Source of the DNA: Candidatus Poribacteria bacterium
Lineage (GTDB): Bacteria; Poribacteria; DTPJ01; WJIO01
NCBI GenBank assembly: GCA_014730235.1
Contig: WJIO01000078.1
Coordinates: 1 to 5,576 of the forward strand
Direction: 5' to 3'
DNA: 5,576 nt
The translations under genes were made by a program, and so were the position numbers. The notes beneath the pieces are model-generated. The model had not been told where the DNA came from, searched no databases, and saw only the letters and a list, made by a program, of their open reading frames with translations. Below, in pieces: positions 1,357-5,132 of this stretch (its first letter is position 1; each line of letters begins with the position of its first letter).

Positions 1357-2937
1357 ATGAAAGATAGTCCAACTATACACCTTTTGAACCCGGATGAGCT
1401 CTCTGTTGATAATGCTTATCGCAGCCTTCCCAGGATGGGTGTAATCACTATTGAAACCTCGTTCCCCAAACTTGACTCTCAGTTGGAAATGCTTGAACAA
1501 AAGGGATTTGCAGGCATACATATCATGGCATTCGGTTCGGTAGATGAAAGAATAATAATCAAAGCCTATAAGGGAAAGCAGGGGATCTGTTATGATACAG
1601 GTAGATCTGCAAGATACATGGGAGCAGCCCTGACGGCTGTGGACGATGATCATCACCTGTTGTTTTCCGATGAGGAAGTTCCTGTATGTGAAAAAACCGC
1701 CACGCTTTATTCCCTACCATGCTACAGGGATCTTATTAATTGTTCGGAAGGAGATAAGGGTTTGCTGGAAAACCTATCAAACAATCCGATATTGTTTGAC
1801 TGTGATAATTATGAAGAATCTCTGGAAAAACTGTTTTCCATGGTCCGGGGGAAGAAACAACCGGAAGAATTCACGAATCTGTTCTATCCCGGTCCCTTCA
1901 AACTCCTGGTTTTAAAAGATGGAAGTATTATTCACCGCGGAAGGATCAACAAAGTGCCGGTAGAGGAATATAAAAGATTAATGAAGAATGATGGTCTTTT
2001 CAGGCTTGGTGGACAGCCCACCGGACAATATGAATCATTTGTCGATTTATTTCAGGTTCAGGGCCCAAGGTGCCTGCTGAAAAATCCCCAACCAACCAAG
2101 GTCAATGTTCATGATCCTTTTCCCGACCTAACTGTGCTTAAAACAATATCCCGGGGGCTTAAAAACAGAATGCTCCGTATTTTAGAAAGCCAGAAAGATT
2201 ATTTTATACTGACCGGCAGCAATCGTGAAGATGAGTATGGATGTTGCCCGTCTGATGAGGTTACCGAGGCGGACAACCTGGTCAAAGCTGGTATACTGAG
2301 TGCCAGTCGTGAATCAACGGCCGATGATGCTTGTCCGGTTACCATATACGCATTCAGGAATGAAATTGTAGATTCCCTGGGACAGATGCAATTCAACCAG
2401 AATAGCGACCTCAGGCAAGACGTATATAAACGGCTGAAAAATAACCGTTCCCACTTATTGAAGATAACTGCCAGGTGGGCTCTTTTAGGGTTTGTCATTG
2501 TCACACTCATACTGGCATTGACCAGGATTTACGATACACCCGCACCACCTCGGAATAATAATGGACTGCATACCAGACTTGATGTACCAATGCCAAACAG
2601 TACAATACTGGTTCTTTTTCATTACAAAAAACGTTGTGAGCAGTGTTTGGCAATGGAAAAATATGCAAGGGAAGTATTGGAGGATAATTTTCATGAAATG
2701 TTGCAACAGAAGCAGATCCAATTCAGGCAGGCAGTTATGGACCTGGAAGAAAACAGGAACTTTATTGAACGATTTGGGTTGTTTACATCAACACTGGTAA
2801 TAATAAAGTTTGAAGACATGGAAGAAGACAGTATCAGGGTACTGGATCGTTCCTGGACTCTTTATACCAATGAAATGGAATTCAAAAAGATGCTCACAGA
2901 GGAACTAAATCATATGATCGGACATGAATACGATTAA
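1357..2937 (+). CDS. Membrane-anchored ArsF-type thioredoxin fused to an ArsM-C-like cysteine-rich cytoplasmic region
   Basis: A 526-residue composite protein. Residues 70-125 carry C-x-D-x-G-x-x-A-x-Y-x-G (C78), then D-D-D-H-H, then V-P-V-C-E-K-T-A (C111), a pattern I recognise from the C-terminal arsenic-binding region of ArsM methyltransferases; the SAM-binding Rossmann part is absent. Further cysteines are C122, C129, C149, C239, the pair C296-C297 in Y-G-C-C-P-S-D-E-V, and C326. Residues 150-340 match nothing I know. A single membrane helix lies at about 373-389, preceded by the basic K-R-L-K-N-N-R, which predicts cytoplasm for the N-terminus and periplasm for the C-terminus. Residues 415-520 look like a thioredoxin fold with C427-E-Q-C430, as in the ArsF family, which is normally a small separate protein. 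The start is 3 bases after the desulfurase stop, so the two genes are probably co-translated. I infer passage of electrons or sulfur between the next gene's membrane protein and a thiol or metalloid centre. Domain calls are from memory of motifs; the ArsM part is the least certain. Confidence 0.8.
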   Translation: MKDSPTIHLLNPDELSVDNAYRSLPRMGVITIETSFPKLDSQLEMLEQKGFAGIHIMAFGSVDERIIIKAYKGKQGICYDTGRSARYMGAALTAVDDDHHLLFSDEEVPVCEKTATLYSLPCYRDLINCSEGDKGLLENLSNNPILFDCDNYEESLEKLFSMVRGKKQPEEFTNLFYPGPFKLLVLKDGSIIHRGRINKVPVEEYKRLMKNDGLFRLGGQPTGQYESFVDLFQVQGPRCLLKNPQPTKVNVHDPFPDLTVLKTISRGLKNRMLRILESQKDYFILTGSNREDEYGCCPSDEVTEADNLVKAGILSASRESTADDACPVTIYAFRNEIVDSLGQMQFNQNSDLRQDVYKRLKNNRSHLLKITARWALLGFVIVTLILALTRIYDTPAPPRNNNGLHTRLDVPMPNSTILVLFHYKKRCEQCLAMEKYAREVLEDNFHEMLQQKQIQFRQAVMDLEENRNFIERFGLFTSTLVIIKFEDMEEDSIRVLDRSWTLYTNEMEFKKMLTEELNHMIGHEYD

Positions 2938-2975: not shown

Positions 2976-3644
2976 ATGAATGAATTAATTCCGGCATCAG
3001 GAGTTTGCTTTCTCGCAGGGATGATGACGTCCATCCACCCCTGTCCGATGACTACGAATATCGCTTCTGTATCTATGCTGACCGGATGGTCAGCCAGACA
3101 TCGGAATACAGCCCTGACATTGTTATTTTTTATCTGCGGATATCTTTTTTCCTATCTGATCATATCCATTCTGTTAAGTACCGGCGTATCATCGGTCCCA
3201 CGTATAAGTTATGTTTTGCAAACAATGGTCAATTATTTGCTGGGACCGATACTGGTTCTGATCGGGATGTTACTATCTGATCTACTGAATTTAAATCGTT
3301 TATATAAAGGCAGGATCCTGTTATCTATCCGTTCGAGAAACTGGTCAGGTTATTATGCATTCCCATTTGGAAGTTTGATTGCACTGAGTTTTTGTCCGGC
3401 AACCGCTGCTATATTTTTCGGCATTCTTGTACCGCTTTCTGTAGATCATGAGCAGATTATACTTTTCCCTCTCTTGTATGCCATTGGAGCCTCATTACCC
3501 CTGGTTGTCGTCAGTGTGTTGATGAACCGGGGAGCAGGATTCATTAAAAATCCTGCTTTTACTAAATATCTTGTGAGGATCAGCGGATGGATACTCATTA
3601 TCATCGGAATCATCCTTTCTATTAAAAGGATCTACCTGATTTAA
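2976..3644 (+). CDS. ArsG/CcdA/DsbD-like membrane thiol transporter
   Basis: A 222-residue polytopic membrane protein with about six hydrophobic helices. Numbered from the ATG at 2976, helix 1 holds S-I-H-P-C-P-M-T-T-N (C23) and helix 4 holds S-F-C-P-A-T (C140). One Cys-Pro in each half is the hallmark of the CcdA/DsbD-beta (LysE/TauE-like) fold, in which the two cysteines form a disulfide that carries electrons across the inner membrane. The H-P-C-P-x-T-T-N form is what I know from proteins annotated as the ArsG family, described as aromatic arsenical efflux permeases next to ArsF. Here an ArsF-type domain is encoded directly upstream, so the two are probably partners. An in-frame GTG at 2961 would add five residues; I prefer the ATG because it starts just before helix 1 and lies outside the hairpin at 2946-2972. 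Whether it moves electrons or exports a substrate cannot be told from sequence. Confidence 0.87.
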   Translation: MNELIPASGVCFLAGMMTSIHPCPMTTNIASVSMLTGWSARHRNTALTLLFFICGYLFSYLIISILLSTGVSSVPRISYVLQTMVNYLLGPILVLIGMLLSDLLNLNRLYKGRILLSIRSRNWSGYYAFPFGSLIALSFCPATAAIFFGILVPLSVDHEQIILFPLLYAIGASLPLVVVSVLMNRGAGFIKNPAFTKYLVRISGWILIIIGIILSIKRIYLI

Positions 3645-3893: not shown

Positions 3894-4068
3894 AAGTCGC
3901 AAAATTTTTTAAAATGCTGTAATATGCAGTATATTAATATATTAAATGCCATTAGGCAAATCTTAACCGGACACTAGTGGATGTGTATATGAAACGTTTA
4001 CATCTCAGTTCACAACTAAGAAAATCATTGGCAACAATCTGAAAACAGTTACTGCTTATAAAAAGAAC

Positions 4069-4110
4069 CCCTAACCGACTCCACACTTCATATCCATAAG
4101 ATCGTTAGGC
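4069..4110. other. Possible short or decayed attC site at the left junction
   Basis: CCCTAAC (4069-4075) and GTTAGGC (4104-4110) pair over six bases and resemble integron R'' and R' boxes. The 28 bases between them pair poorly (CTT-AT/AT-AAG with a bulge), and the element is 42 bases long, shorter than usual for attC. GTTAGGC is well supported as the start of cassette 1; CCCTAAC as a true R'' is not, and no matching cassette start is evident upstream. It may be chance next to an ectopic insertion point. Confidence 0.3.
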
Positions 4111-4132
4111 AACATTTAAACTAAACAGAAAA

Positions 4133-4234: not shown

Positions 4235-4543
4235 ATGGAAAAGCAAAAAAAAGGAACGATAATGCAAATCGTTAAATTAAAAACAGAATTGTCAGAAGAG
4301 GAGCTTCTAAAAGTAGCCAAAGAGCGAGAACCGCAATTCAAAGCTATTTCTGGAATTGTTCAGAAATACTACGTTAAACTTGGAGGCCCTGGTGAATATG
4401 GAGGAGTATATATTTGGGATTCCTTAGAATCATTGGAGAAATTTAAAAAATCTGAACTTGCCGCTACTATACCCAAAGCGTATAAGGTGGTGGAAACTCC
4501 TACAGTAGAAGTAGTTGATATAATGTTTGAATTAAGAGAATAA
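4235..4543 (+). CDS. YdhR/ABM-like dimeric alpha-beta barrel protein (cassette cargo)
   Basis: A small protein of about 100 residues with the beta-alpha-beta pattern of the dimeric ferredoxin-like barrel superfamily (YdhR, antibiotic biosynthesis monooxygenase). It has a first strand M-Q-I-V-K-L-K, a helix S-E-E-E-L-L-K-V-A-K, a strand G-I-V-Q-K-Y-Y-V, the turn-strand G-G-V-Y-I-W-D-S plus the helix L-E-S-L-E-K-F, and a C-terminal strand V-E-V-V-D-I-M-F-E. The G-G-x-Y-x-(W/F) stretch followed by an acidic helix is what points to YdhR. No catalytic residues are diagnostic in this family, so activity and substrate are unknown. The ATG at 4235 is the first after the stop-disrupted leader. The ATG at 4262 is equally possible: it starts exactly at strand 1 and has AAGGAA six bases before it. 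Ancestrally the reading frame extended to 4133 as a lipoprotein. The gene is alone in its cassette and probably depends on an outside promoter. Confidence 0.72.
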   Translation: MEKQKKGTIMQIVKLKTELSEEELLKVAKEREPQFKAISGIVQKYYVKLGGPGEYGGVYIWDSLESLEKFKKSELAATIPKAYKVVETPTVEVVDIMFELRE

Positions 4544-4549
4544 AACATT

Positions 4550-4601
4550 GCCTAACTATGGCTAAACTGCATTTTAACGCATTTTAGCCAAACCGTTAGT
4601 G
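4550..4601. other. attC recombination site of cassette 1
   Basis: R'' GCCTAAC (4550-4556) fits RYYYAAC. R' GTTAGTG (4595-4601) begins with the required GTT; CTAAC/GTTAG pair over 5 bp. Between them are unpaired spacers (TA and AACC) and an inner 12-bp stem TGGCTAAACTGC/GCATTTTAGCCA (4559-4570 and 4579-4590) with a single C-T mismatch and an 8-nt loop. R box, unpaired central spacer, L box with one extrahelical position and terminal loop is the folded attC layout that IntI recognises. Confidence 0.78.
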
Positions 4602-5132
4602 TGCATTATTTTTTTTGAATCTGGATTAAATAATAAATCATGAGAACTCAACTAACACTATTCATGATTCTTTTCTTTTTGCCAAGTTGTTCACTTATGG
4701 AAAAAATGATGATAAACAGAATGGAGAAAATGTCAAATGAGGAGAAAATGGAGATGATGACCAAAATGATGGCAAATGAAAATGATTTGACTTGTAACGA
4801 TATGATGGAAAAAATGTCAGGAATGTATTTGGATGATAGCCTTTCAATGTCTGACAAAGCATCCATCATGATGCCCATATGTTTTGAACATATTTTTACT
4901 ACGGTTGAGGACAGTATGAAGGCTCAATTCTTAATAGATTTCTCAAAAGTCTTGATTGAAAATGGATATGATAATATACCATTAAAAGATAGACCCTATT
5001 TCAAGAAGGAAATGATAAATACAATTACCGGTTTGGGTTGATATTAACGCATACTAACCTTGTATATGAAATGCTTCAACATTACCAATTCAAAGGTTCG
5101 AAAGCACTTGGACCGCACTTCACATACACATG
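4596..5132 (+). mobile_element. Integron gene cassette 2
   Basis: It starts at the strand-exchange point inside attC 1 (G-TTAGTGTGCATTA). The reverse complement of 4595-4608 matches 5045-5058, just after the stop of its gene, at 12 of 14 bases with two transitions. This is the start-to-own-R'' complementarity expected of a cassette. The right end is placed after G5132, in the R' position of the hairpin at 5052-5138. It carries one gene and is AT-rich like cassette 1. Confidence 0.62.
4640..5041 (+). CDS. Methionine-rich small lipoprotein (cassette cargo, unknown function)
   Basis: A 133-residue protein starting M-R-T-Q-L-T-L-F-M with a short hydrophobic signal ending in the lipobox L-P-S-C, so it should be lipidated at Cys17 and held on a membrane facing the periplasm or outside. 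Twenty-one of the 133 residues are methionine, most of them between residues 9 and 75 in closely spaced M-M and M-x-x-M patterns alternating with Glu/Lys helices (E-K-M-S-N-E-E-K-M-E-M-M). There are two further cysteines, in L-T-C-N-D and P-I-C-F. The C-terminal half is an ordinary mixed helical sequence. I do not recognise the family. Dense Met motifs occur in periplasmic copper and silver binding proteins, but a Met-rich amphipathic helix could also be structural. The ATG at 4640 gives a correctly sized signal peptide; no good ribosome site precedes it, only an A/T-rich leader with a run of eight T at 4609-4616. The stop lies 10 bases before the R'' box of its attC. Confidence 0.82.
   Translation: MRTQLTLFMILFFLPSCSLMEKMMINRMEKMSNEEKMEMMTKMMANENDLTCNDMMEKMSGMYLDDSLSMSDKASIMMPICFEHIFTTVEDSMKAQFLIDFSKVLIENGYDNIPLKDRPYFKKEMINTITGLG

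Follow-up and report, generated by a model that had tools for sequence, protein, structure and literature searches.

The locus raises the question of what is done by a single protein in which a region related to the arsenic methyltransferase ArsM is joined through a membrane helix to an ArsF-type thioredoxin domain. The window, that is the whole stretch of DNA analysed, is a complete contig of 5.6 kb (5576 nucleotides) from a fragmented metagenome-assembled genome (MAG) assigned to Candidatus Poribacteria. An initial annotation had described the frame as a methyltransferase-free metalloid-binding module attached to a periplasmic thiol–disulfide module and knew of no described protein with this architecture; the collections and papers searched contained none, and no paper combining cysteine desulfurase, arsenic resistance, thioredoxin and ArsM was found in the literature. 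The fusion gene is the second of three genes that follow closely on one another on the + strand, between a desulfurase-type gene and an ArsG-like gene (Table 1). Its ATG lies three bases past the desulfurase stop, and the ArsG-like gene has an alternative GTG start at 2961. Together with its constant neighbours, this rare membrane protein suggests an undescribed bacterial device for arsenic-like elements or sulfur.

Table 1. Features of the window and copies of the fusion in other genomes
Feature	Position	Strand	Basis or remark
NifS/IscS-type cysteine desulfurase-like gene, 372 aa	235..1353	+	PF00266 E 1.7e-50; first in three-gene unit
Fusion protein, 526 aa, ATG start	1357..2937	+	ArsM-C copy 1, copy 2, GCCPS domain, membrane helix, ArsF thioredoxin
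Homologue of ArsM C-terminal part, residues 12-150 (end of methyltransferase fold + C-terminal domain; C78, C111, C149)	1390..1806	+	Profile matches
Putative second, Cys-free ArsM C-terminal domain copy, residues 164-225, FYPGPFKLLVLKDGSIIHRGRINKVPVEEYKRLM	1846..2031	+	hhalign
Domain with GCCPS (C296, C297) and CP.xIYAF (C326), residues 255-350	2119..2406	+	Conservation in five copies
Single transmembrane helix, residues 370-388	2464..2520	+	Hydrophobicity; helix 364-393 in model
ArsF-family thioredoxin domain, residues 402-522, C427-E-Q-C430	2560..2922	+	NF040494; thioredoxin fold
ArsG-like / DsbD_2-type membrane protein, 222 aa from ATG	2976..3644	+	NF040495, PF13386, alignment
L064, Bacteroidetes/Bacteroidia MAG			71% identity to window fusion
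L065, Bacteroidetes/Bacteroidia MAG			60% identity to window fusion
L067, Lewinellaceae MAG, on 252 kb contig			39% identity to window fusion
L066, Candidatus Aminicenantes MAG			36% identity to window fusion

The sequence features attributed to the frame by the initial annotation were all present. C78-Y-D-T-G-R-S-A-R-Y-M-G fits the pattern C-x-D-x-G-x-x-A-x-Y-x-G, DDDHH occupies residues 96–100 and PVCEKT contains C111; the seven further cysteines counted before residue 330 are C122, C129, C149, C239, C296, C297 and C326, and C427 and C430 complete the set of the protein. Seven of these cysteines do not change among the five copies known: C78, C111, C296, C297, C326, C427 and C430. C122, C129, C149 and C239 do vary. 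The initial annotation had overlooked a second ArsM-C copy, the GCCPS domain and the two conserved partner genes, one NifS-like and one ArsG-like.

The other four full-length copies came from scanning 84,980 genomes with motif-steered patterns, and belong to three MAGs of Bacteroidota and one of Aminicenantes; a fifth match (L068) was an ordinary ArsM. Since the scan requires exact 8-residue patterns, it undercounts fusion copies. Group profile searches of about 1,580 genomes (395 and 396 from the phyla of L067 and L066, 393 and 396 from the orders of L064 and L067) yielded no further full-length fusion beyond the seeds. Separate ArsF genes were common in these searches, as were separate ArsM genes in the two phylum searches. 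Own-phylum searches gave no credible fusion copy other than that of the window, the rest of the Poribacteria being without the three-gene system. An early scan of genome contigs and scans of viral contigs, using the whole protein, the partner protein or motif sets, returned no relative; some of the queries were composite or mutated and merely steered the choice of pattern.

A frame fusion, chimera or other artefact was ruled out because the frame is kept end to end in the four other genomes and dN/dS (calculated against L064) is about 0.2–0.3 in every domain; all fusion domains are under purifying selection. In an ArsF-domain tree of 112 columns, the four Bacteroidota-type fusions (window included) of the five formed one starred clade. 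As judged from this tree, all five fusions may have a single origin.

The resemblance of the N-terminal motifs to the C-terminal region of ArsM was borne out by profile comparison. A profile of fusion residues 1–150 was aligned using hhalign with 32 ArsM C-terminal sequences (probability 99.7, E 5.5e-27), the match extending to the FDC motif around C149. NF038099 (AsSugarArsM) matched all five copies (best E 7.2e-6), in the window with residues 45–117 against model positions 226–297 (E 2.5e-4), and a Staphylococcus plasmid ArsM shares 33% identity with fusion residues 12–126. When the fusion profile was used in whole-genome searches, ordinary ArsM proteins matched at equal positions (open frames mostly 320–490 aa). 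Shared with ArsM/AS3MT are the C-terminal part and the motifs GK.G.C..TG..A.Y.G...DDD.H......VC.KT...L and FDC; the fusion differs in the absence of the SAM-binding fold and of the As(III)-ligand cysteines and in the duplication of the domain. No methyltransferase Pfam match was found in the fusion, whereas real ArsM proteins gave strong matches; Pfam and PDB sequence searches with the head yielded nothing useful. With the SAM fold absent, the fusion would be unable to methylate. In Acidobacteriota, a radical SAM domain (PF04055) was found fused to a complete ArsM methyltransferase (L142 2–2257, also L141 and L152).

The inference that these motifs bind As(III) as the arsenic-binding cysteines of ArsM was not supported. 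The As(III) ligands are Cys72, Cys174 and Cys224 in CmArsM and Cys61, Cys156 and Cys206 in human AS3MT (PMC4211708, PMC3877260). C78 of the fusion corresponds to human Cys271; the regions bearing human C61 and C156 have no counterpart in the fusion, and at the aligned place it lacks the C206/C224-type cysteine (GECLGGAL or SGCYSGAI). Binding of As(III) by C78 and C111 is therefore possible, though it does not follow from what is known of ArsM.

Residues 136–256 gave a further hhalign match to the ArsM profile (probability 83.9, score 37.6), with an aligned core of about 164–225. The score exceeded those of all 300 column shuffles (best 22.2), and other parts of the fusion scored 14–16 against the same profile. 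Profile alignment thus assigns to the head two ArsM C-terminal domains in tandem, of which the second lacks cysteines. In structure prediction, residues 74–223 were modelled at pLDDT <50. The fusion has the ArsM C-terminal domain in use, duplicated and without a methyltransferase; as the function of this domain is little studied, the protein is a natural construct for finding its role.

Between the tandem pair and the membrane, residues 255–350 carry GCCPS...CP.xIYAF, which is invariant and is the most conserved motif of the fusion, and are without a secure match. Modelled alone, this domain reached a pTM of 0.67 and gave weak winged-helix-like or S8-like matches only. The CodY C-terminal domain (Foldseek E 0.055) and ribosomal S8 (Z 6.4, 3.9 Å, 63 residues) were rejected as too weak. 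The domain had no sequence relative in plasmids, and phage matches were at E 2 or worse.

The membrane helix had been placed at residues 373–389; a single strong hydrophobic window was located at 370–388, with a mean Kyte–Doolittle value of 2.21 (next best window 1.11). Lys/Arg residues flank the helix on its N-terminal side in all five copies, so that the positive-inside rule most likely places the N-terminal part in the cytoplasm and the thioredoxin domain in the periplasm. The assignment of the C-terminal part as an ArsF-type thioredoxin was supported: NF040494 (ArsF) matched residues 419–520 with 77.0 bits (cut-off 60, E 1.3e-21) and also matched the other four copies. C427-E-Q-C430 sits within the thioredoxin fold of the predicted model (best Z 10.7 over 97 residues, 2.6 Å). 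Stand-alone ArsF proteins likewise have a CxxC thioredoxin fold and an ArsG neighbour, often with one N-terminal hydrophobic segment. They are encoded here by open frames of mostly about 140–235 aa with no recognised extra domain, whereas the fusion, a single 526 aa frame in five genomes rather than a small separate protein, adds about 360 aa on the cytoplasmic side. In Bacteroidota genomes (L107, L112, L114 and others) two different ArsF genes often adjoin, and in Prevotella ordinary arsF and arsG lie in one arsenic operon with arsC and acr3.

The order NifS-like cysteine desulfurase, fusion and ArsG-like permease was found in all five genomes with the fusion, with 3–10 bp ahead of the fusion gene. 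The desulfurases of L064–L067 are 45–83% identical to that of the window and the ArsG proteins 35–81%. As in NifS/IscS, the desulfurase has the class V aminotransferase fold and the catalytic lysine and cysteine: Lys200 (the PLP lysine), Asp174, Gln177, His101 and the loop cysteine Cys321 (GSACH) are invariant in the five orthologues. It differs in its constant fusion partner and in scoring below all named NifS/IscS/SufS equivalog cut-offs (best NCBIfam match FeS_nifS, 210 bits against 531). The ArsG-like protein matched the ArsG family (NF040495) and DsbD_2-CcdA (PF13386, E 5e-11) over its whole length. The two conserved intramembrane cysteines are kept, one each in HPCP and FCPAT, an arrangement which we take to be that of a CcdA/DsbD-type electron carrier. 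HPCP stands in place of the SPCP of the family. Against NF040495 it remained below the equivalog cut-off of 200 in all four copies tested (151.9 bits in the window; 172.4, 144 and 156.5 bits in the others). Electron transfer to thioredoxin-like partners is established for the DsbD/CcdA family.

From the families, gene order and cysteines observed, we infer an electron flow with its direction, a metalloid substrate and a persulfide transfer. ArsG would move electrons across the membrane to C427–C430 of the ArsF domain. The reduced thioredoxin domain would then reduce a thiophilic metalloid or organoarsenical in the periplasm, or free it from thiols. The cytoplasmic ArsM-derived head, with C78/C111 and C296–C297/C326, may dock or sense metalloid–thiol cargo or may take up persulfide from the desulfurase. 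That the fusion is the centre of such a three-gene envelope thiol relay directed at metalloids has, in our estimate, an even chance of being correct. The domain assignments, the kept gene order, the seven invariant cysteines, the topology, the purifying selection, the Prevotella arsenic operon with ordinary arsF and arsG and the established electron transfer of the DsbD/CcdA family argue for it; the lack of ars neighbours in the stretches seen, the missing ArsM ligand cysteines, the sub-threshold ArsG scores and the poorly modelled residues 74–223 count against it. The link of a cysteine desulfurase with ArsF/ArsG in two phyla suggests that the supply of sulfur and the handling of metalloids are connected in a way not yet described. 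In a bolder version, which we consider improbable, the desulfurase would load sulfane sulfur onto the cytoplasmic head, which would thiolate (or selenate) a trivalent metalloid, and ArsG/ArsF would power the reduction of the metalloid or its release outside by redox; if true, this trans-envelope sulfur–metalloid machine would be arsenic detoxification by enzymatic thiolation.

The same three genes might instead serve sulfur trafficking, in which desulfurase persulfide passes to the cytoplasmic cysteines of the fusion, ArsF/ArsG maintains some sulfur or thiol target in the periplasm in its reduced state and ArsM-C is a recruited docking scaffold. A constant desulfurase partner with intact catalytic residues, the loss of the arsenic ligands and the position of the invariant C296–C297 and C326 outside the ArsM-like part are consistent with this, as is the genomic setting, no arsenic gene adjoining any of the five operons within the stretches seen. 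Nevertheless, ArsM-C, ArsF and ArsG are three families otherwise linked to arsenic and the three-gene unit holds no acceptor gene (SufE, TusA or an apo-FeS protein), and we regard sulfur trafficking as possible but rather unlikely.

Tolerance of mercury or of soft metals in general, with a head that buffers Hg(II), Cd(II) or Sb(III) by its thiols or senses them and with desulfurase sulfur capturing the metal, is brought to mind by the Aminicenantes copy (L066), where merR, a merTP fusion and merA lie directly downstream of the operon (10236–12703; MerA 555 bits, over its cut-off). Metal genes occur at this one of the five loci only, however, and none of ArsM-C, ArsF and ArsG is a mercury family, which makes this reading improbable. 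The NCBIfam names themselves (ArsF nitroreductase subunit, ArsG efflux permease) would make the locus an ArsEFG-like system for aromatic arsenicals, and NF040494 does score over its cut-off; NF040495 does not. Against this reading, the family names trace to one studied system, ArsEFG; that system is cited in PMC9144182. No ArsE was recognised beside the fusion (none of the models scored bears that name), the desulfurase being the only other gene of the unit, and such a system has no place for a desulfurase or a cytoplasmic head; we consider it very improbable. The metalloid-directed relay is the reading that we prefer.

The contig may be mis-binned, because a Shine–Dalgarno-like upstream sequence was present in none of the six window genes but in roughly half of the MAG genes sampled, the tetranucleotide correlation of the window with its MAG is low (0.30) and the closest relative of the fusion is in a Bacteroidetes MAG. 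The finding of the fusion is unaffected by this. Downstream of the three genes, the window holds a small Met-rich lipoprotein-like ORF with MEKMM repeats (4640–5041; no family match in Pfam or NCBIfam). A small ydhR/ABM-like ORF (4236–4543) is flanked by attC-like sites (4064–4118 and 4546–4608) with matching ends GTTAGGC/GCCTAAC. The left site folds weakly; the right site (GCCTAAC...GTTAG) has an inner hairpin and z −3.6 on the − strand, and this ORF may be an integron gene cassette.
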